Source of the DNA: Fodinicurvata sediminis DSM 21159
GTDB taxonomy: Bacteria; Pseudomonadota; Alphaproteobacteria; Kiloniellales; DSM-21159
Assembly (NCBI RefSeq): GCF_000420625.1
Contig: NZ_ATVH01000020.1
Location: forward strand, 62,001 to 126,000
Direction: 5' to 3'
DNA: 64,000 nt
A program made the translations under genes and the position numbers. The notes beneath the pieces are model-generated. The model worked only from the letters and a program-made list of their open reading frames with translations, was not told the DNA's origin and made no database searches. Of this stretch, positions 51,701 through 62,554 are shown piece by piece; the stretch's first letter is position 1; each line of letters opens with the position of its first letter.

Positions 51701-52851
51701 GCGGGCGGCTGCTGATCTCGTCCTGGCCGGGGGAAACCCGGATCGCCCGCCTGGACGCGCATGACGAGCTGACCTTCCTGCGCGTCCTGCGCGACGAACG
51801 CCCGCCCGCCCTGGACGACATCTACCTTGCGCGTGTGACGCGCCTGGACAAGGGGCTGAACGCCGCCTTTGTCGCGCTGGGCGAGGGGCAATCCGGCTTC
51901 CTGCCCCTGGGCAAGGCAGTGACGCGCCCGGACGAAGGCGCGGCCTTGACCCTGCGGGTGACTCGCGCGCCGGCCGAGGACAAGGGCGCCAAGCTGGCGC
52001 CGGCCCAAGTGGCGGTGCCCGCGGGCGTGAAGCCGCCCGCCTGCCTGCAGCGCGGCGAAGAGCTGACCGCCCTGGTGCGTGGCCTGGCACAGGCCGACGA
52101 CGAGATCATCTGTGACGACAGCGCGACCTGCAACGCCCTGAAGGCGGCGGGCCACCAAGTGACCCATCACAGGGGGCCGGGCCCGCTGTTCGACGCCGTC
52201 CTGGAGGCGGAGATCGAGGCCCTTCTTCTGCCCCAAGTGGCCCTGCCCGGGGGCGGCGGCCTGTTGATCGAGCCGGTGCGCACCCTGACCGCCATCGACG
52301 TGAACAGCGGCCGCCAGGACGGGCGCGGCGGCGCCCAGCGCAAGGCTCTGGAGGTCAATCTCGACGCCGCCGCCGAGATCGCCCGCCTGCTGCGCCTGCG
52401 CGACCTGTCGGGACGCATCGTGGTGGATTTCCTGGAGATGGCGGGCAAGCGCGAGCGCGAACAGCTGATGGAGGCCCTGCGCGCCGCCGTGGCCGACGAT
52501 CCCGAGCCGGTGCAGATCCAGCCGCTGAAGGGCAGCGGCCTGGCCGAGCTGACCCGGCGGCGCAGCCGCCAGCCCCTGCATGAAGTGCTCTGCATGCCGG
52601 TGGGGCCGGGCGGCTGTGGCTGGGCCAAGTCGGCAGTGACCCGGGCCTTCGAACTGGTCCGGGCAATCGATGCCTTGCCGCCCGCGCGCGGCCCTGGGGT
52701 CACGGTGACGCCCGCGGTCGGCCAGGCGCTGGACGGACCGGCGGCCGCCGCCCTGGCCCGGCTGGCCGAACGGCGCGGACGACAGCCGGATATTGCAATC
52801 CGCGCGGCGGACGCGCTAAACCGGGACGGCTATAGCCTGGAAGAGGGGTAG
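51697..52851 (+). CDS. Ribonuclease E/G family protein (short form)
   Basis: 384 residues with a GTG start inside the maf stop. The S1-like part includes GLNAAFVALGEGQSGFLPLG. Catalytic aspartates D201 in LTAIDVNSG and D244 in RIVVDFLEM are present, so the active site should be functional. The usual zinc-link CPxC is altered; only CMPVGPGGCG is seen. It is shorter than E. coli RNase G (about 489 residues). The last 68 bases are duplicated at 54931-54998, behind the inserted AbiE module. Confidence 0.88.
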   Translation: MSGRLLISSWPGETRIARLDAHDELTFLRVLRDERPPALDDIYLARVTRLDKGLNAAFVALGEGQSGFLPLGKAVTRPDEGAALTLRVTRAPAEDKGAKLAPAQVAVPAGVKPPACLQRGEELTALVRGLAQADDEIICDDSATCNALKAAGHQVTHHRGPGPLFDAVLEAEIEALLLPQVALPGGGGLLIEPVRTLTAIDVNSGRQDGRGGAQRKALEVNLDAAAEIARLLRLRDLSGRIVVDFLEMAGKREREQLMEALRAAVADDPEPVQIQPLKGSGLAELTRRRSRQPLHEVLCMPVGPGGCGWAKSAVTRAFELVRAIDALPPARGPGVTVTPAVGQALDGPAAAALARLAERRGRQPDIAIRAADALNRDGYSLEEG

Positions 52852-52867
52852 GCAGCCATGAGCGGCG
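52784..52867 (+). repeat. 84-bp direct repeat, left copy
   Basis: Starts AGCCGGATATTGCAATCC and ends at AGCCATGAGCGGCG. It is attached to the complete rng gene and carries a severed yacG start. Confidence 0.95.
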
Positions 52868-52923: not shown

Positions 52924-53838
52924 TCACGTCAAGGCTTGCCAAGGAAGTGACAGATAGAATCCGCGCACGACTGCGAAGCGTTCTTCAAAGGGCGGCAGAT
53001 CACCCAGTTCAAGCGCAAGCGACTCCCAGTCCTGCTCGGCGCGTCGATAAACTTCCGGATCATCCATTGATTCGGTCGTGGGCGTGATCCTCCGACTGCG
53101 GCATTTCTCGATCAGAGTGGTCAGGATGATCCTTCTGGCTTCATCATCGAGGTTCTGCCCCTCAACCAGGTAAGAGATATCGTAGATATCCTGACGTCGG
53201 TTCCGGTTTCGGATGGTTTGTTGCAACAGGGCCCGCAGTTTCTCCGCGATGACCTCATGCAACGTGAAGGCCCTTACAGCCACATTGGCGCCGGTGAGAT
53301 TGAGTTCCTGGAACGCATGGACCTGATCTCGAAAGCTGATTTCGAGATCAAGAACCCGTGGGGCTTTGCCATTTTCCAGTTTTTGCTCTTCGCCTGTTCC
53401 GCGTTTGGCAGAGCCGACACGGACCAGCAGGGCCGGGAAGCTGTGGTCTTCAAAGTCCTGAGGCCGCGGCATCTTCTTGACGGTCTGTACACGGCAGAGC
53501 AGATCCAGGTAACCGAGCCTGGTTGCCGTGCGGGGCAGCACAGCGTTGAGATCCTCGCCAATCCTGTCAGCGAGATCCGCGGGCTCAACCGTAGCGGTGA
53601 AATCCACGTCGGCTGTGACCCGACTGCTCTTGAAGGCAAGCGCCATGACGGCACCGCCCTTGAGTACAAGGGTGTCATGCAGACTGGGGGTCAGGCCGAT
53701 GGCGGCCAGGACGATCTCGGTTACCTGGCGATCCCGATAGAGGGTTGGGTCTGTTCTTGCCGTCTCGACCCAGGCTCGGACATCGACATCAACAATGTCC
53801 GGCGTTGGCGCGCGCTCTTCCGGATCGAGATCAGACAT
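52924..53838 (-). CDS. abiEii: AbiEii/AbiGii family nucleotidyltransferase toxin
   Basis: 304 residues. The nucleotidyltransferase core is TLVLKGGAVMALAF followed by the metal-binding DVDF in RVTADVDFTATV; the later motif VIAEKLRALLQQT then NRRQDIYDISYLV is typical of the AbiEii/MenT-like toxins. These transfer nucleotides to RNA or bind GTP to stop growth, giving abortive phage defence. The start overlaps the antitoxin gene by 8 bp (ATGTCTGA), so synthesis is coupled. GC is lower than the flanking genes. Confidence 0.88.
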   Translation of the reverse strand: MSDLDPEERAPTPDIVDVDVRAWVETARTDPTLYRDRQVTEIVLAAIGLTPSLHDTLVLKGGAVMALAFKSSRVTADVDFTATVEPADLADRIGEDLNAVLPRTATRLGYLDLLCRVQTVKKMPRPQDFEDHSFPALLVRVGSAKRGTGEEQKLENGKAPRVLDLEISFRDQVHAFQELNLTGANVAVRAFTLHEVIAEKLRALLQQTIRNRNRRQDIYDISYLVEGQNLDDEARRIILTTLIEKCRSRRITPTTESMDDPEVYRRAEQDWESLALELGDLPPFEERFAVVRGFYLSLPWQALT

Positions 53839-54712
53839 TCAGCGAGATCATCCACTTTTCAGAAAAGACAGGGGCATAGTCCGCTTCCGGATCCAGTTTC
53901 CGGGATCCACCCCTTTGCGCATACTGCTCCCAGTTGTGGATGAGGGGGTGCGAAATGTCCATGACCTCGGATAGGATGTAGCCGGCACGGACCTTTGCAA
54001 TCTTGCTCTCGAGCTGATCGACAGCCTCTACGATTTCAGGAATCCAGGCATCAGCTTCCCTTTCCCAGATATCAATGACATGGCGCATGCCGCCGCAGAG
54101 TTCTGGTTCTGTCAGCATGTCGGCAAAGGTCCGGCCGATGGAGGTGATGCGTGTCTGCTCTCCGCTTATGGCAACCGGTGTCGCCGGATGACTTGATTCG
54201 TGAAGGACCACGGGCCGGCGCCGGATGGTTGGATTGAAGCCGGGGCGAACGAGAAGTGGCCGCTCAGCCGTGGGGATATGAGACATATCCTTGCGCATTT
54301 TTTCATCGCGCAGCTGGGTCCAGAGTTTAGGTGTTGGTGTGGTGAGGTGGAGCGCCTTGGGGCTTCTGTCGGTGAGATTGTATCTCTGCATTGCAGAGAG
54401 ATGAGAGACATAAGCAAAGGGATCGGCCAGGCAGGCGACTTCTTCGGCCGAGCCGGCGCGTGTGGCTTCGATAACGCGCCAAACGTTGGAGCGGAAATCG
54501 GAATCCCTGGTAAGGACCTTGTTGTCTTCGAGCCGTTTTATGTCGCGCGATGTGCGCGATAGGCTCCATTCCTTTGGTATATATTTTAGAGGTGTTCCTT
54601 TCCTGGAACCTCTGGAGAAGAGTTCGTATCCGAGGAGAAAGATCTCGTAATAGGTGATGATCGGGAGGTCACGATCCAGGAGCGCCTGTTTGAAGGCGTC
54701 GTTGAATTTCAT
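53831..54712 (-). CDS. abiEi: AbiEi-family antitoxin and autoregulator
   Basis: 293 residues. The N-terminal part (residues 1-80, ITYYEIFLLGYELFSRG and SLSRTSRDIKRLEDNKVLTR) reads as a winged-helix DNA-binding domain. The middle has LADPFAYVSHLSAMQRYNLTD, a typical AbiEi stretch, and the C-terminal domain is alpha/beta. AbiEi proteins neutralise AbiEii and repress their own promoter. The ATG follows AAGGGAGGGTATAAA, so the ribosome binding site lies in the arm of a 43-bp palindrome. Confidence 0.85.
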   Translation of the reverse strand: MKFNDAFKQALLDRDLPIITYYEIFLLGYELFSRGSRKGTPLKYIPKEWSLSRTSRDIKRLEDNKVLTRDSDFRSNVWRVIEATRAGSAEEVACLADPFAYVSHLSAMQRYNLTDRSPKALHLTTPTPKLWTQLRDEKMRKDMSHIPTAERPLLVRPGFNPTIRRRPVVLHESSHPATPVAISGEQTRITSIGRTFADMLTEPELCGGMRHVIDIWEREADAWIPEIVEAVDQLESKIAKVRAGYILSEVMDISHPLIHNWEQYAQRGGSRKLDPEADYAPVFSEKWMISLNV

Positions 54713-54715
54713 TTT

Positions 54716-54758
54716 ATACCCTCCCTTATATGTCCTGAGGACATATAAGGGAGGGTAT
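54716..54758. promoter_or_regulatory. 43-bp palindrome overlapping the abiE promoter and ribosome binding site
   Basis: Arms 54716-54736 and 54738-54758 are exact inverse copies (21 bp each) around one central base. The sequence contains the core TATGTCCTGAGGACATA. It begins 3 bases before the abiEi start codon on the minus strand and covers the ribosome binding site and the -10. It is probably the operator for AbiEi and may also form an RNA hairpin that hides the site. Confidence 0.85.
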
Positions 54759-54770
54759 TATCTTTGTCAA
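54742..54770 (-). promoter_or_regulatory. Candidate abiE operon promoter
   Basis: TTGACA (54770-54765, perfect -35) and TATATG (54747-54742) are 17 bp apart on the minus strand. The -10 falls inside the palindrome, consistent with direct repression. Confidence 0.65.
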
Positions 54771-54807
54771 GTTACTTACGATCGTGCAACCTTGCATTGG
54801 TTGACAG

Positions 54808-54856
54808 ACAGTATCCCTTAGCTTATGTCCTCAGGACATAAGCTAAGGGATACTGT
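54808..54856. promoter_or_regulatory. 49-bp palindrome with the same core, upstream of the abiE promoter
   Basis: Arms 54808-54831 and 54833-54856 are exact inverse copies of 24 bp around one base, with core TATGTCCTCAGGACATA. It shares that core (apart from the central base) with the promoter palindrome 49 bp away, but its outer arms differ. I take it as a second operator site. Confidence 0.8.
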
Positions 54857-54930
54857 GCAAGACTTTTACACAGCAGCTTGCAGTTAACTGCACGCAATAG
54901 GGCCGGTTCTCAAGTTGACTGAATTGCAGT

Positions 54931-55014
54931 AGCCGGATATTGCAATCCGCGCGGCGGACGCGCTAAACCGGGATGGCTATAGCCTGGAAGAGGGGTAGGC
55001 AGCCATGAGCGGCG
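54931..55014 (+). repeat. 84-bp direct repeat, right copy
   Basis: Same as 52784-52867 apart from GGGATGG for GGGACGG. It supplies the ribosome binding site (GAAGAGGGGTAGG) and start codon of the intact yacG gene. Confidence 0.95.
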
Positions 55015-55292
55015 GTGACGACAGCGCAAGCGGCAAGAAGAACAGCGGTGCGGAGGCGGATGAGGCCAAGGTGATCTCGCTGCAGGCGCGCAAGCGCCAG
55101 GGGCGCAGCTGTCCCATCTGCAGCAAGCCGGAGGTCCAGGCCTATCGCCCCTTCTGCTCGGCCCACTGCAAGAACGTGGATCTGAACCGCTGGCTGGGCG
55201 AGCGCTATCGCATTCCCACCGAGGAGGCACCCGACAGCCTGCCCGCCGGCGGCCATGAGGACGACGACGATCCTGGCCCGCAGAGTGCGTGA
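55005..55292 (+). CDS. yacG: DNA gyrase inhibitor / zinc-finger protein YacG
   Basis: 95 residues. The four-cysteine zinc site is CPICSKPEVQAYRPFCSAHC, followed by the conserved DLNRWLGERYRIP. The N-terminal 35 and C-terminal 20 residues are low-complexity tails. YacG binds GyrB and inhibits gyrase. The first bases are within the right 84-bp repeat. The position after the RNase and before tRNA-Phe is the usual alphaproteobacterial one. Confidence 0.93.
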   Translation: MSGGDDSASGKKNSGAEADEAKVISLQARKRQGRSCPICSKPEVQAYRPFCSAHCKNVDLNRWLGERYRIPTEEAPDSLPAGGHEDDDDPGPQSA

Positions 55293-55435: not shown

Positions 55436-55511
55436 GCCCAGGTAGCTCAGTTGGTAGAGCATGCGACTGAAAATCGCAGTGTCGGTGGTTCGATTCCGCC
55501 CCTGGGCACCA
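55436..55511 (+). tRNA. tRNA-Phe (anticodon GAA)
   Basis: A complete 76-nt cloverleaf. Acceptor GCCCAGG pairs with CCTGGGC, the discriminator is A and the CCA is encoded. The anticodon stem GCGAC/ATCGC encloses CTGAAAA, giving anticodon GAA. The T arm contains GGTTCGATTCC. The region just after it holds an IS remnant and the defence island, as is common for tRNA-linked insertion sites. Confidence 0.97.
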
Positions 55512-55550: not shown

Positions 55551-55676
55551 GGCTCTTCCCCATGAACGGGGGATGGGTATCCATCAGACCCGGTTAATTA
55601 CACCATTCCATCCGGCTCTTCCCCATGAACGGGGGATGGGTATCCATCAGACCCGGTTAATTACACCATTCCATCC
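55551..55676 (+). repeat. Two perfect 63-bp tandem repeats containing an ISL3-like end
   Basis: Unit 1 is 55551-55613 and unit 2 is 55614-55676, identical. Each begins GGCTCTTCCCCATGAACGGG, which resembles ISL3-family terminal inverted repeats (GGCTCTT). Each also carries the last codons of the transposase frame on the minus strand. Confidence 0.9.
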
Positions 55677-55936: not shown

Positions 55937-58699
55937 ATGCAGACACCCGAAGACAAGGCCCGGGCAGAGATCGACCGCCTTCTGAGCTCTGCGGGCTGGG
56001 TGTTGCAGGATATGGGGAACTTCAATCGCAATGCGGCGCTGGGCGTTGCGGTGCGGGAGTTCCAGTTGCCGGCCGGGCCTTGCGACTACCTGCTGTTCGT
56101 CGCCGGCAAGGCGGCCGGGGTGATCGAGGCCAAGCGCAGTGGTGTGACCCTGAGCGGCGTGGCGGAGCAGTCCGAAAAGTACATGGGGGCCCTGCCGCCG
56201 CACCTGGCCAGCTGGGGCGATATCCTGCTCTATGATTACGAGAGCACGGGCACGGAGACCCTGTTCCGCGACCTGCGCGATCCGAAGCCGCGCTCGCGCC
56301 GCATCTTCGCCTTCCATCGCCCGGAAACACTGCAGGCCTGGCTGCAGCAACCGGACACCCTGCGCGCCCGGCTGCAGAAGATGCCGCCGCTGGACAGCAG
56401 CGGGCTGCGCGACTGTCAGGTCGAGGCCATCACCAATCTGGAACGCTCGCTGGCCGAGGACCGGCCGCGTTCGCTGATCCAGCTGGCGACCGGGGCGGGC
56501 AAGACCTTCACGGCCTGTTCCTTTTCCTATCGCCTGATCCGCCATGCCGGGGCGCGGCGTATCCTGTTCCTGGTGGATCGCAACAACCTGGGCGACCAGA
56601 CGCTGCGGGAATTCCAGAACTTCCAGCCGCCGGGGGCGGCCAATCGCTTCACCGACACCTATATCGTGCAGCACCTGCACGCCCACCACATCGACCGCGA
56701 TGCCAAGGTGGTCATCACGACGATCCAGCGCCTCTATTCCCTGTTGCGCGGCGAGGAGCTGGAGGACGAGGCCGAGGAGCATTCAGCCTTCGAGATGGAT
56801 CAGGCGGCGGGCAGCGAGGTGGCGCCCCTGGGCTATAACCCGGAGATTCCCGTCGAAACCTTCGACTTCATCATCACCGACGAGTGCCACCGCTCCATCT
56901 ATGGCCTCTGGCGCCAGGTGCTGGAGTATTTCGATGCCTCGATCATCGGCCTGACGGCCACGCCGTCCAAGCATACCCTGGGCTTCTTCAACCAGAACCT
57001 GGTGGCTGAATACCCCTATGAGCGTTCGGTGGCCGACGGCGTGAACGTGGGTTACGAGATCTATCGCATCCGCACGCAGGTCAGCGAAGAGGGCGGGCGC
57101 ATCGAAGGCACGGATACCGGTTTCCAGGTGCCCGTGCGGGACAAGCGCAGCCGCAAGCTGCGCTATGAACAGCTGGATGCCGACCTGGAATACAGTGCCA
57201 GGGAGCTGGATCGCTCGGTGGTGAATCCCAACCAGATCCGTACGGTGCTGCAGACCTATCGCGAGCGGGTCTTCACCGAGCTGTTCCCAGACCGCAGCGG
57301 CCAGTGGCTGCCAAAGACCCTGATCTTCGCCAAGGACGACAACCACGCCGAGGAGATCGTGCATGCCGTGCGCGAGGTGTTCGGCGAGGGCAACGAGTTT
57401 GCCAAGAAGATCACCTATCGCAACAGCGGCGAGGACCCCAAGGCCCTGATCAAGGCCTTTCGCGTCGATCCCTTCCCCCGCATTGCGGTGACCGTGGACA
57501 TGATCGCCACCGGCACGGACATCAAGCCGGTGGAGGTCCTGATCTTCATGCGCGACGTGAAGTCCGAGGGCTATTACGAGCAGATGAAGGGCCGTGGGGT
57601 GCGCTCCATTCCCGATGCCGACCTGAAGGCCGTGACACCCGATGCGAAGACCAAGACGCGCTTCATCCTGATCGATGCCGTGGGCGTCTCCGAGACCAAG
57701 AAGAACGCTTCGCAGCCATTGGAGCGCAAGAAGACCGTCAGTTTCGATGCCCTGCTGGACCAGGTGGCCATGGGGCGGCGGGACGAGGACGCCCTGTCCT
57801 CCCTGGCCGGCCGCCTGTCGGCCCTGGACCGCAAGCTGGGCGAGGAGGAGCGCCACCGCATTGCCGAGGCCAGTGGCGGCAAGCCGCCGCGCGAGCTGTC
57901 CAACGACCTGCTGGACGCCATTGACCCGGACCGGCAGGAAAGCGCCATCCAGCAGCAGCATGGCCCGCAGGCCACCCCGGACCAGGAAGCCGCCGTGGTG
58001 GAAAAGCTGATGGACACGGCCTGCCAGCCCTTTGATTCGCCGCAGCTGCGTGACCTGCTGAAGGACATCAAGCAGAAGGCGGACATCGTGATCGACGAGA
58101 TGACGACCGACAGCCTGCTGGGAGCGACCTTCGACAGGAAAAAGGCCGAAGAGACGGTGACCAGTTTCCGCAAGTTCATGGAAGACAATCGCGACCAGCT
58201 GACCGCCCTGCAGATACTCTATAACCAGCCGCGCGGACAGCAGAAGCTGACCTATCAGGCCATCCGCGAGCTGGTCCAGCGCCTGGGCGATCCGCCGCAT
58301 TACCTGACCACCGCCACTGTGTGGCAGGCCTATCGCCGGCTGGAGGCGGCCAAGGTGCGCGGCGCGCCGCTGGACGACCAGCTGACCGAGGTGGTCAGCC
58401 TGGTGCGCTTTGCCCTGGGCCAGGACGAGGTGCTGGAGCCCTTCGGAACCGTGGTGGAACAGCGCTTCAACCTGTGGCTGGGGCGCGAGAAACGCGCCGG
58501 CCGGGACTACACGGCCGAGCAGGAAGACTGGCTTCGCACTATCGCCTCCTATATAGCGGCGAACGCCGAGATTACGCCGCGCGATTTCCAGGAAGCCCCC
58601 AGCCTGGCCGACCGCGGCGGGATCATACAGGCGCGCAAGGTTCTGGGACCGGAGTTGAACGACATGCTGGATGATCTGCAGGGAGCCTTGGTGGCGTGA
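55937..58699 (+). CDS. hsdR: Type I restriction enzyme, R (restriction) subunit
   Basis: 920 residues with GGAGG before the ATG. The PD-(D/E)xK nuclease has D50, E64 and K66 in CDYLLFVAGKAAGVIEAKR. Superfamily 2 helicase motifs follow: Walker A with K189 in ATGAGKTFTA, DECHRS at about 315-320, LTATP, and later TGTDIKPVEVLIFMRDVKSE. The C-terminal 250 residues fit the EcoEI-type tail. It translocates DNA and cuts unmodified targets. The stop overlaps hsdS (TGATG). Confidence 0.95.
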   Translation: MQTPEDKARAEIDRLLSSAGWVLQDMGNFNRNAALGVAVREFQLPAGPCDYLLFVAGKAAGVIEAKRSGVTLSGVAEQSEKYMGALPPHLASWGDILLYDYESTGTETLFRDLRDPKPRSRRIFAFHRPETLQAWLQQPDTLRARLQKMPPLDSSGLRDCQVEAITNLERSLAEDRPRSLIQLATGAGKTFTACSFSYRLIRHAGARRILFLVDRNNLGDQTLREFQNFQPPGAANRFTDTYIVQHLHAHHIDRDAKVVITTIQRLYSLLRGEELEDEAEEHSAFEMDQAAGSEVAPLGYNPEIPVETFDFIITDECHRSIYGLWRQVLEYFDASIIGLTATPSKHTLGFFNQNLVAEYPYERSVADGVNVGYEIYRIRTQVSEEGGRIEGTDTGFQVPVRDKRSRKLRYEQLDADLEYSARELDRSVVNPNQIRTVLQTYRERVFTELFPDRSGQWLPKTLIFAKDDNHAEEIVHAVREVFGEGNEFAKKITYRNSGEDPKALIKAFRVDPFPRIAVTVDMIATGTDIKPVEVLIFMRDVKSEGYYEQMKGRGVRSIPDADLKAVTPDAKTKTRFILIDAVGVSETKKNASQPLERKKTVSFDALLDQVAMGRRDEDALSSLAGRLSALDRKLGEEERHRIAEASGGKPPRELSNDLLDAIDPDRQESAIQQQHGPQATPDQEAAVVEKLMDTACQPFDSPQLRDLLKDIKQKADIVIDEMTTDSLLGATFDRKKAEETVTSFRKFMEDNRDQLTALQILYNQPRGQQKLTYQAIRELVQRLGDPPHYLTTATVWQAYRRLEAAKVRGAPLDDQLTEVVSLVRFALGQDEVLEPFGTVVEQRFNLWLGREKRAGRDYTAEQEDWLRTIASYIAANAEITPRDFQEAPSLADRGGIIQARKVLGPELNDMLDDLQGALVA

Positions 58700-60162
58700 T
58701 GACGGTTGGTGAGCAAAGCCTTCCAAGAGGATGGATAAAGGCGCGCTTAGGTGATCTCATACCCAAGCCTCGCCCGAAGATTCCTGCCAATCCCGATAGC
58801 CGTCTTCCATTTATAGGAATGGACCATATTGAACCGTCATCGTTCTCTCTAAAAGGCCACGATCAATTTGCACGGATGAAAAGCTCGGGTAGTTATTTTG
58901 AACCCGGAGATGTGCTTTATGGTCGTCTCCGCCCCTATTTGAATAAGGTGCACTGCGCCAAGTTTGAGGGTGTTGCATCAGCTGAATTCATCGTTTTGCC
59001 GTCTTCCGATTGCTTCGATAGCGACTTTATCAAATATCTCATACATCAGAGGAAATTCGTTGATTATGCGATGAGTCATTCATCGGGTGATCGCCCACGG
59101 GTTAAATTCGACGACATAGCCGATTACGAGTTTCCCCTCCCACCCCTCAACGAACAACGCCGCATCGTCGAGAAGATCGAAACGCTCTTTGCTCGATTGG
59201 ACAAGGGTGAAGAGGCGCTGCGCGAGGTGCAGAGGCAGCTTTCCACCTATCGCCAGTTGGTGTTGAAGGCGGCCGTTACAGGGCAGCTGACCGCCGATTG
59301 GCGTGCGCAGAACGCGCATCGCCTGGAACAGAGCCGCGACTTGCTGGAGCGCATCCTGCAGACCCGCCGCGAAACCTGGAAAGGCCGCAGCAAGTACAAG
59401 GAGCCGGTGGCTCCCGACACGTCCGACTTGCCGGACCTTCCGGAAGGATGGGTTTGGGCTTCTTTAGATGAACTATCAGTGCATCTCACAAGTGGCTCCC
59501 GGGATTGGAAAAAATACTATGGCCAAGGCAAGGGGATTTTTATTTTAGCTCAGAATGTGCGGCCAATGAATTTCGATCTTTCACAGAAGTTCATGGTCGA
59601 TCCACCCCCGAGCAGTCCTGATGCTCTAAGAAGTGAAGTTAGACGAAATGATATTCTCATAACGATTGTTGGTGCTAATACTGGGGACGTATGTCGCTTC
59701 CCTAACGACGCTCGTGGCCACTATGTGTGCCAGAGCGTTGCGTTACTGCGATTGGCGGATTCGAGCATAAGTCCGTTTGTCGAGATGTATTTATCCGGCA
59801 AAGGGGCAGGAAGGGATCAACTAGATAACTTTATCTACGGTGCAGGACGTCCGCATTTAAGCTTTGAGCAAATACGAACGGTTGCAGTTCCTATCCCGTC
59901 AAATGAGGAACAGGCTCAGATTATGCTTCTTGTCAAAGAAGCATTTGAGCGTGTGAGCCGGATTGATCGAATCTGCAAAACCGAACTCACCAGATCGGCC
60001 GCCCTGAGACAATCCATACTGAAAGATGCTTTTGCAGGCCGTCTTGTTCCCCAGGACCCGAATGATGAATCGGCGGCTGACCTTGTTGCTCGCATCAAGG
60101 AAAACCGTGATGTCAGGTCGAAGCGGTATCGGAGACAGTCCACAAGAAAGCTGGCATCATGA
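58699..60162 (+). CDS. hsdS: Type I restriction-modification specificity subunit S
   Basis: About 487 residues; ATG at 58699 overlaps the hsdR stop, with a GTG one codon upstream as the other option. There are two target recognition domains (about 8-150 and 245-420), each followed by a helical spacer; the central one includes PPLNEQRRIVEKIETLFARL. Base usage in both recognition domains is far less GC-rich than in hsdR or hsdM, as expected for swapped domains. It sets the DNA target. The stop overlaps the nuclease gene by 4 bp. Confidence 0.94.
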   Translation: MTVGEQSLPRGWIKARLGDLIPKPRPKIPANPDSRLPFIGMDHIEPSSFSLKGHDQFARMKSSGSYFEPGDVLYGRLRPYLNKVHCAKFEGVASAEFIVLPSSDCFDSDFIKYLIHQRKFVDYAMSHSSGDRPRVKFDDIADYEFPLPPLNEQRRIVEKIETLFARLDKGEEALREVQRQLSTYRQLVLKAAVTGQLTADWRAQNAHRLEQSRDLLERILQTRRETWKGRSKYKEPVAPDTSDLPDLPEGWVWASLDELSVHLTSGSRDWKKYYGQGKGIFILAQNVRPMNFDLSQKFMVDPPPSSPDALRSEVRRNDILITIVGANTGDVCRFPNDARGHYVCQSVALLRLADSSISPFVEMYLSGKGAGRDQLDNFIYGAGRPHLSFEQIRTVAVPIPSNEEQAQIMLLVKEAFERVSRIDRICKTELTRSAALRQSILKDAFAGRLVPQDPNDESAADLVARIKENRDVRSKRYRRQSTRKLAS

Positions 60163-61073
60163 GTGACCTAAAACTTTTTCAGACGCAGGGCGCGTCGCTT
60201 TGTGAACTGGATAGCTCGTCGGCACCCCTGGAGCGTGGGCTGCAGACAGTCTTCGAAAATAACCTCGAAACTCTCCTGGGCGTGCGCTTCCTGGCGTCCG
60301 AGTATTCCACCACTCATGGCGGACGCATGGACACTCTGGGTGTGGATGAGAATGGCTATCCGGCCATAATAGAATACAAGCGTGAGCGCTCGGAGAATGT
60401 GATCAACCAGGGGCTTTTCTATCTCGACTGGCTGATGGACCATCGGGGGGATTTCGAGCTTCTGGTCCGTGACCGTTTTGGACGGGAGGCGGCTGCCCAG
60501 ATCGAATGGAGTGCTCCACGCCTGATCTGCATCGCCGCGGACTTCACCAAGTATGACACTCATGCCGTAAAGCAGATGGGCCGAAACATCGAGTTGGTTC
60601 GCTATCGCAAGTTCGGCGAAGATCTGTTGTTGCTGGAACTGCTTACCGCCGTTTCTGCTACCTCGCCGTCTACAGCCTCGGTGGATCCCATGAACGGGGG
60701 CACCAAGGCCAGCAAGTATAAGACCGTCTCGGAAATGGTTTCGGATGCGGGCAGTGCGCTGGCGAATCTCCATTCCGATGTTGAGACCTACCTGTTGGGC
60801 CTGGGCGACGATGTGACCAAGAAAACCCTGAAGAACTATTTTGCCTTTCGCCGGATCAAGAACTTCGCCTGCGTCGAGGTCAAGACGACCCTTGATCTGG
60901 TGCGGCTGTACCTGAAGATCGATCCCGGGACCGTCGAGCTGGAGGACGGCTTTACCCGCGACGTACGGCATGTCGGTCATTTCGGCACCGGTGATCTGGA
61001 AGTCACGCTGAAATCCCATGACGATCTGGAGCGTGCGAAGCCTTTGATCGAGCAGTCCTACGAGGCATCCTGA
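60159..61073 (+). CDS. NucS/DUF91-like PD-(D/E)xK nuclease with DUF5655-like C-terminus
   Basis: 304 residues. LERGLQTVFENNLETLLGVR and then D58, E72, K74 in GRMDTLGVDENGYPAIIEYK form a restriction-fold nuclease site like that of NucS/EndoMS and DUF91 proteins. The second half (SDVETYLLGLGDDVTKKTLK and after) matches the DUF5655 domain as I recall it. ATGA overlap with hsdS and TGATG overlap with hsdM place it inside the type I operon. Its role in restriction or as an accessory nuclease is not known. Confidence 0.82.
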   Translation: MSDLKLFQTQGASLCELDSSSAPLERGLQTVFENNLETLLGVRFLASEYSTTHGGRMDTLGVDENGYPAIIEYKRERSENVINQGLFYLDWLMDHRGDFELLVRDRFGREAAAQIEWSAPRLICIAADFTKYDTHAVKQMGRNIELVRYRKFGEDLLLLELLTAVSATSPSTASVDPMNGGTKASKYKTVSEMVSDAGSALANLHSDVETYLLGLGDDVTKKTLKNYFAFRRIKNFACVEVKTTLDLVRLYLKIDPGTVELEDGFTRDVRHVGHFGTGDLEVTLKSHDDLERAKPLIEQSYEAS

Positions 61074-62554
61074 TGAGCAACAAGGAACAACTGGTCCAGA
61101 AGGTCTGGAACTATGCCCATGTGCTGCGCGACCAGGGTATTTCCTATGGCGACTATATCGAGCAGATCACCTTCCTGTTGTTCCTGAAGATGGACCAGGA
61201 GCGGGTGGATCATCTGGGCGAGCCCTCGACCGTGCCGCCGGAGTGGAGCTGGGCGCAGCTGGCGGGCAAGGACGGCGAGGACCTGGAACAGCAGTATCGC
61301 CGCAGCCTGGAGGCGCTGGCCCGTGAAGACGGGCTGGTGGGCACGATCTTCCGCAAGGCGCAGAACAAGCTGTCCGATCCGGCCAAGCTGAAGCGTGTGG
61401 TCAGCCTGATCGACAAGGAGGGGCCCTGGATCGGCCTGGACGTGGACGTGAAGGGCGAGATCTATGAGGGGTTGCTGGAGCGCAATGCCTCGGAAGTGCG
61501 CTCGGGCGCCGGGCAGTACTTCACGCCGCGGCCGGTGATCGACGCCATGGTGAAGTGCGTGGACCCGAAGGTGGGCGAGACGGTCTGCGACCCGGCCTGT
61601 GGCACTGGCGGCTTCCTGCTGCAGGCCTATGAGCACATGAAGGAACAGTCCCTGGACCGGGAGAAGTTGCGCGACCTGCGCCACACGGCCTTTACCGGCA
61701 TGGATATCGTGGACGAGGTGGTGCGGCTTTGTGCCATGAACCTCTACCTGAACGGCGTCGGCAATGGCGGCAGTCCGGTGGAGCGTGGCGATGCCCTGTC
61801 GAATGATGGCGGGGATCGCTTTGACGTGGTGCTGACCAATCCGCCTTTCGGCAAGAAATCCAGCTATACCGTGGTGGGCGAGGATGGCCAGGTGGCGACC
61901 GAGCGCGAGAACTACGAGCGCGAAGACTTCAAGTTCACCACCTCGAACAAGCAGTTCAATTTCCTGCAGCACATCATGACCATCCTTCAGGCGAACGGGC
62001 GTGCGGGGGTGGTCATGCCGGACAACGTGCTGTTCGAGGCGGGTCGGGCCGGCGAGGGCCTGCGCCGGCGCCTGTTGGACGGTTTCAACTTCCACACCCT
62101 GCTGCGCCTGCCCACCGGCATCTGGTACAGCCCCGGCGTGAAGGCCAACGTCCTGTTCTTCGACAAGCGCCCGGCGGCGCGCGAGGCGCAGACGCGCGAG
62201 CTGTGGGTCTATGACTATCGCACCAACGTGCACAAGACCCTGCGCACCAAGCCGCTGACCCCCAGCGACCTGGACGATTTCGTGCGCTGTTACCACGAGC
62301 GGCAGGAGACCGAGCGCTTCCGCCGCTTCACCTATGACGAGCTGATCCAGCGCGACAAGGTGAACCTGGACCTCTTCTGGCTGCGCGACGACAGCCTGGA
62401 GGACACCGAGAACCTGCCGGCCCCCGACCTGCTGGCCGCCGAGATTGTGGAGAACCTGGAATCGGCCCTGGAACAGTTCCGCAGCGTGGCGAGCGAGCTG
62501 GGGGGTGACGCTGATGATGATTCAGCCGATGCGCCAAGGGATGCCAGTGCGTGA
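61073..62554 (+). CDS. hsdM: Type I restriction-modification methyltransferase subunit M
   Basis: 493 residues. The N-terminal HsdM domain (SNKEQLVQKVWNYAHVLRDQ) precedes SAM motif I at D173 in VCDPACGTGGFLL and the N6-adenine motif IV at 256-259 in VVLTNPPFGKK. It methylates adenine in the target set by HsdS. It is the last gene of the overlapping operon, whose order R-S-X-M differs from the common R-M-S. Confidence 0.95.
   Translation: MSNKEQLVQKVWNYAHVLRDQGISYGDYIEQITFLLFLKMDQERVDHLGEPSTVPPEWSWAQLAGKDGEDLEQQYRRSLEALAREDGLVGTIFRKAQNKLSDPAKLKRVVSLIDKEGPWIGLDVDVKGEIYEGLLERNASEVRSGAGQYFTPRPVIDAMVKCVDPKVGETVCDPACGTGGFLLQAYEHMKEQSLDREKLRDLRHTAFTGMDIVDEVVRLCAMNLYLNGVGNGGSPVERGDALSNDGGDRFDVVLTNPPFGKKSSYTVVGEDGQVATERENYEREDFKFTTSNKQFNFLQHIMTILQANGRAGVVMPDNVLFEAGRAGEGLRRRLLDGFNFHTLLRLPTGIWYSPGVKANVLFFDKRPAAREAQTRELWVYDYRTNVHKTLRTKPLTPSDLDDFVRCYHERQETERFRRFTYDELIQRDKVNLDLFWLRDDSLEDTENLPAPDLLAAEIVENLESALEQFRSVASELGGDADDDSADAPRDASA

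Follow-up and report, generated by a model that had tools for sequence, protein, structure and literature searches.

Two long, exact palindromes with a common core lie upstream of the abiE operon in the window, the 64-kb stretch of DNA analysed here, and raise the question of what such elements do at this operon and by what means their arms are kept exact. The operon, a toxin-antitoxin system of the phage-defence kind, consists of abiEi (53831..54712, minus strand; PADLOC PDLC02237, E 2.8e-115), encoding the antitoxin and presumed repressor, and abiEii (52924..53838, minus strand; PF08843, E 3.8e-28; PADLOC AbiEii, E 4.8e-110), encoding a nucleotidyltransferase toxin (DUF1814). The antitoxin gene lies upstream, its ORF overlaps that of the downstream abiEii by 8 bp, and this gene content and order are those of a type IV AbiE operon, a type in which AbiEi neutralises the toxin activity with no direct contact between the two. 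No Pfam or NCBIfam match was obtained for the AbiEi of the window; the C-terminal domain AbiEi_1 was matched by 7/14 family members, and the PF11459 (AbiEi_3) family control had no match anywhere. A PDB sequence search with AbiEi returned no credible relative, and an AbiEi structure model built from a 4-row alignment had a pLDDT of 37 and was not used.

Two exact palindromes over predicted promoters

The initial annotation had described two exact palindromes with arms of 21 and 24 nt and a common core, and this description was confirmed. The first palindrome, P1 (54716..54758, no strand assigned, 21-S-21), has its 21-nt arms at 54716-54736 and 54738-54758 around a single central base, and the second, P2 (54808..54856, no strand assigned, 24-S-24), has its 24-nt arms at 54808-54831 and 54833-54856, again around one base. 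Both are exact inverted repeats; P1 has counterparts 5′ of abiEi in relatives, where P2 is conserved as well. Common to the two is the 17-mer TATGTCCT-S-AGGACATA, which takes the form TATGTCCT-G-AGGACATA in P1 (54729..54745, no strand assigned) and TATGTCCT-C-AGGACATA in P2 (54824..54840, no strand assigned). Compared with a next longest perfect arm of 13 in the 64-kb window (loop ≤3), and with longest arms of 8–12 in simulated windows of the same dinucleotide make-up (n=20), the arm lengths of P1 and P2 are far beyond chance. The whole-genome search, which covered the core pattern only, showed the core to be confined to these two sites of the 3.69-Mb genome, even when ≤2 mismatches were allowed. 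Folded as single-stranded DNA, each palindrome tested gave one full hairpin of −15 to −32 kcal/mol, as is expected of any such sequence. A 17-mer inside abiEi (54407-54423) equals the P2 arm at 16/17 bases; this match is likely due to chance, because the coding stretch is conserved in the related locus L005 and the P2 arm of L005 is not.

Every promoter considered here is a prediction. For abiE, the predicted elements on the minus strand are a −35 TTGACA (54765..54770; sequence and consensus scan) and, at a spacing of 17 bp, a −10 TATATG (54742..54747; consensus scan) that begins 10 bases before the P1 centre, so placed that the predicted start falls at this centre, at about 54735-54736. A likely RBS, GGGAGGG (54719..54725, minus strand; read from the sequence), is spaced 6 nt from the ATG and forms part of the right P1 arm. 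P1 spans this RBS of abiEi together with the predicted −10 and start, and the placement of a −10-like element and RBS inside it, already proposed earlier, held up in the sequence and the consensus scan. Overlooked at that time was a divergent promoter at P2, predicted on the plus strand from a −35 TTGACA (54801..54806) and a −10 TATGTC (54824..54829) spaced by 17 bp (sequence and consensus scan for both); P2 spans its predicted −10 and start. In the window this promoter points towards the rebuilt yacG (55005-55292; promoter to gene end 54801-55292, plus strand), and since it faces yacG, AbiEi might also control yacG here.

The abiE cassette is located between 84-bp direct repeats (52784-52867 and 54931-55014, one mismatch) that correspond to the rng 3′ end/yacG 5′ end and exceed the length of an ordinary transposon target duplication. 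The related locus L030 shows a single, empty site for the cassette, and no integrase was found in the 2.1-kb insert. Further along, an exact 63-bp tandem duplication (55551-55676) lies just 3′ of a tRNA-Phe gene (55436-55511), and a defence island adjoining abiE is made up of type I restriction-modification genes (55937-62554), among which a PDC-S18 gene separates the specificity gene from the methyltransferase gene.

A constant centre and complementary arms among relatives

Conservation of the core 5′ of relatives' abiEi genes, which the initial annotation had made the test of its proposal, was examined, and the core was present in nearly every relative read, so that the proposal was not refuted by its own test. 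The closest relatives (AbiEi identity 87%, 67% and 66%) have two exact palindromes each, with the same core and other arms. When the search was widened from these to plasmids and genomes, 39 loci carrying 70 such palindromes (two in 31 loci, one in 8) were obtained from alpha-, beta- and gammaproteobacteria, mostly on plasmids, including a 4.7-kb E. coli plasmid that bears the system; AbiEi identity among them goes down to 28.5%, in small enterobacterial plasmids. This set of loci depends on AbiEi homology and its members share ancestry, L046-L049 being near copies of L039. The palindrome pair is not indispensable, because eight loci have one palindrome, some of them with both genes (L020 and L035); L049, another of the eight, is interrupted by the record end. 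L016, L021 and L028, each showing one palindrome, seem to be without a full-length AbiEii. Beyond the 39 loci, L012 carries a variant palindrome with an arm of 25 and a 3-base centre. The perfection of the arms was not built in by the search, because the 11-mer NTCCTNAGGAN alone as query still yielded exact arms of 18–28 at every match 5′ of abiEi in the 39 loci; at the few matches not 5′ of abiEi, the arms were just 5–6.

The same or nearly the same abiE promoter geometry was predicted by the consensus scan in most loci, with the exceptions of L009, L023 and L026, where the predicted −10 lies 32–34 bases before the P1 centre. In the window, L005-L008, L011, L015, L022, L024, L041 and others, the predicted promoter that P2 overlaps is directed away from abiE; on the E. 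coli plasmid, the better of those predicted at P2 faces abiE. The neighbours behind the divergent promoter differ between loci, and no gene conserved there was seen. The distance between the centres of P1 and P2 is 84–152 bp, and no common helical phase was apparent by eye.

Exact palindrome pairs were absent from the other AbiEi families sampled: inverted repeats at 16 AbiEi_1 matches, where present, were shorter or imperfect, and almost none were seen at 30 AbiEi_4 matches, some of them weak. Upstream of another AbiEi_1 gene, L091 (about 2133-2265) has three palindromes with a common core TAGTATA/TATACTA, whose arms differ and one of which has a mismatched base; this may point to a comparable design in a further AbiEi subfamily. 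On the Xanthomonas arboricola plasmid pXac18 (L032, 705-1316), a divergently oriented recombinase gene has an annotated start that overlaps P2 (1271-1315). In viral contigs, no AbiEi relative and no match to the second core variant were found. Two phage contigs have exact palindromes with the 17-mer core (L013 5471-5509, arm 19; L014 213-249, arm 18), near which no abiE genes were seen; they were taken as chance occurrences among many phage hairpins and set aside as abiE-type sites, although this is not proven.

Counted outward from the centre, bases 1–4 do not vary in 59 distinct arms (TCCT-N-AGGA, nearly always GTCCT-N-AGGAC), positions 6–10 are partially constrained (YATAT-like), and from position 11 outward the information drops to about 0.1–0.2 bit per position. 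Any base may occupy the centre (34 T, 22 A, 10 C, 4 G), and arm lengths are 18–28, mostly 20–23. Arms of different loci are mostly unalike. Base-pair covariation is the normal mark of RNA structure, and a G-T pair is the usual intermediate when selection sees an RNA stem. In the inner 18 bases of 52 palindromes that differ in this stretch, 936/936 pairs are Watson-Crick pairs, with 0 mismatches and 0 G-T pairs, the 936 not being independent events because related sequences share history. Sliding one arm by 1–3 bases reduces the pairing to 21–28%, and all four pair types were seen at each of positions 11–18. The unlikeness of the outer arms of P1 and P2 had been recognised from the window alone; what had been missed is their perfect covariation across the family. 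Within a locus, P1 and P2 agree at 36% of positions 11–18, and palindromes of different loci at 28% (permutation P 0.004); given this small excess over chance, AbiEi may read some of the outer bases. This pattern suggests that pairing between the halves, beyond the letters themselves, matters or is actively maintained, and the arms are very probably kept through complementarity at the DNA level, by whatever means.

How the arms change and what may keep them exact

Six reasonably independent close pairs (window/L005, L006/L007, L017/L018, L032/L033, L037/L038 and L039/L047) were compared. Across them 22 arm pairs have changed with both sequences still perfect; the changes are often adjacent (positions 18–20, 14–15 and 20–21), and the central base changes too. 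Because both sequences are perfect, the mirrored changes do not count as independent evidence, and the independent facts are the perfection and the rate: at positions ≥11, 21/128 pairs differ, compared with 134/379 spacer bases (P 3.7e-5). In enterobacterial plasmids, P1 is identical while the spacer is 67% identical. Judged from these alignments, the arms hold their sequence over short times and vary freely over long ones, and their two halves stay complementary throughout. Such a history would result from compensatory evolution in which pairing is required, or from template switching that repairs a site under weaker constraint.

P1 and P2 are best read as operators of AbiEi, because their position, number and arm length are as in known AbiEi sites, and by this analogy and their position we consider such a role highly probable. 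The dual control proposed in the initial annotation is supported in part: at the level of transcription it is suggested by the position over −10/+1, the conserved core and the presence of two sites as at characterised AbiE promoters, and at the level of translation it found no support for the predicted abiE promoter. As the explanation that we favour, with some reserve, P1 and P2 would be a variant of AbiEi operators in which the arms are kept complementary at the DNA level by template switching together with selection. AbiEi would repress its own operon via both palindromes. It would recognise chiefly the central TCCT-N-AGGA, favour YATAT beside it, and cover the −10/start of the predicted abiE promoter at P1 and of the predicted divergent promoter at P2. 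The outer arms would be maintained by complementarity and not by their letters: one-sided changes would be removed, or copied across by replication template switching within the hairpin, and selection would retain about 20 paired bases. The exact arms, the 936/936 pairs, the outer arms of ~0.1 bit, the slower rate and the −10/start over the dyad all count for this explanation, as does the clustering of changes, such as template switching would make. Further points in its favour are the low agreement (36%) of P1 and P2 at positions 11–18, the binding of known AbiEi repressors to inverted repeats over their promoters (PMC3985639, PMC7319586) and the lack of exact pairs in the other AbiEi families sampled. 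Counting against it are the slight likeness of P1 and P2 within a locus, the common ancestry of the loci and their dependence on AbiEi homology, the eight loci with one palindrome and the predicted promoters further upstream in L009, L023 and L026. Its weakest step is selection on DNA form, in which a hairpin or cruciform would perhaps be used; that such selection acts, rather than mere homogenisation, is a tentative proposal that we would sooner doubt than accept. Somewhat more doubtful still is that the operators work through DNA structure, with AbiEi binding or shifting the balance of duplex versus extruded hairpin or cruciform. If this were true, the promoter, with its start at the extrusion point, would sense supercoiling or single-stranded DNA, triggers such as plasmid entry or phage replication could act through it, and ~20 bp would be kept whatever their letters.

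The most serious rival is a plain operator with mutation bias. AbiEi would read the centre, and template switching, a process that evens out any long inverted repeat as soon as one exists, would have made the outer arms perfect as a neutral side effect. Template switching in bacteria does perfect imperfect inverted repeats, as in E. coli quasipalindromes (PMC7202029), and can maintain stems (PMC8794818); the symmetric changes here are clustered, and the outer arms hold almost no sequence information. However, changes in arm pairs are less than half as frequent as those in the spacer, which argues against homogenisation alone on neutral arms, for which an equal rate would be expected. Moreover, the arm length holds at 18–28 over three proteobacterial classes, where unselected ends should erode, and the imperfect inverted repeats at other AbiEi_1 loci were not perfected, leaving this rival possible but doubtful. 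That AbiEi instead reads whole arms, with operator and protein coevolving in each lineage and an arm sequence specific to each AbiEi, is improbable. It would fit the conservation of arms in close relatives while the spacer diverges, the slight likeness of P1 and P2 within a locus and the 23 bp per arm of known AbiEi sites (PMC3985639, PMC7319586), but one AbiEi would have to accept both P1 and P2, at 36% agreement at positions 11–18, yet with each palindrome exact; Rv2827c, with four unequal arms of unequal affinity (PMC7319586), indicates that AbiEi binding does not require identical arms.

The initial annotation had also raised an RNA hairpin, in which the leader folds, hides the RBS and adds translational to transcriptional control. 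A read-through transcript with both arms, which would have to begin further upstream, would form a 20-bp hairpin containing the RBS (−45 kcal/mol, z −9.9), and the promoters predicted for L009, L023 and L026 lie before P1 and would have both arms transcribed. In most loci, however, the predicted start is at the dyad, which leaves one arm in the abiE RNA, unable to form the proposed hairpin; the leader from the predicted start in the window folds no better than shuffles (z −0.36), and P2 lies upstream of the abiE promoter. The lack of G-T (in RNA, G-U) pairs among the 936 also disfavours RNA as the selected form, since covariation under such selection would include G-U intermediates. For the predicted abiE promoter, translational control by a hairpin did not find support, and we regard this reading as very improbable. 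The slightest chance is given to terminators of transcription or mobile repeats located 5′ of abiEi by coincidence. Both typically have hairpins that are long and exact, but no T-run follows the stems, the core has no other genomic copy, and the palindromes are always tied to abiEi while the neighbours are unrelated.

Significance and comparison with known systems

The evolutionary pattern of the arms should surprise specialists, since it represents RNA-style covariation, with no exception or wobble in 936 pairs, in apparent DNA operators of a protein across three proteobacterial classes. Either the repressor or promoter would use folded DNA, or template switching would homogenise operators enough to set their evolution. 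Two exact palindromes with TCCT-N-AGGA also provide a simple signature by which to recognise an AbiEi subfamily missed in this genome by Pfam and NCBIfam. In a literature search that covered few subscription journals, no description of the exact-palindrome, covarying-arm pattern was found. Template-switch stems described previously are likewise perfect stems kept through multi-base compensatory changes (PMC8794818, PMC7202029), but those are in RNA genes and mutation reporters, whereas putative protein operators without wobble pairs are concerned here.

In S. agalactiae, AbiEi represses by binding both arms of inverted repeats over the promoter (Dy et al. 2014, PMC3985639); the operator is one pair with 23 bp per arm, an N3 centre and 4 mismatches, with a conserved 11 bp at the outer ends, a start 26 nt from the ATG and a −35/−10 spacing of 17 (PMC3985639). 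The locus studied here is alike in having the antitoxin gene first in a two-gene operon, repeats over the promoter and a −35/−10 spacing of 17, with a predicted start about 24 nt from the ATG, and its arms of 18–28 and predicted promoter geometry agree with operators of ~23 bp per arm over −10/−35/+1. It differs in having two pairs instead of one, a 1-base instead of an N3 centre and no mismatch, and in place of the conserved TGTTGCTTTTA at the outer ends of the S. agalactiae type, the conserved part is central and the outer arms are free. An ICE of Streptococcus suis encodes an AbiEi with two palindromic binding sites (IR1, IR2) in its own promoter, which it represses, and this protein binds oriT as well (PMC11062541); here no such second target was found, the core being unique to this locus in the genome. 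The operator of Rv2827c in M. tuberculosis, which consists of two pairs of ~23-bp inverted repeats, is bound by this protein no more than 131 bp from the start codon (Beck et al. 2020, PMC7319586), and two inverted-repeat pairs overlapping the promoter are common to that operator and the present one; its four arms differ and are bound with different affinities, and 13 bp separate the two members of each pair (PMC7319586), whereas the arms here are exact complements around a 1-base centre. Relative to known AbiEi operators, what is new in these putative operators is the constant part at the centre together with exact arms.
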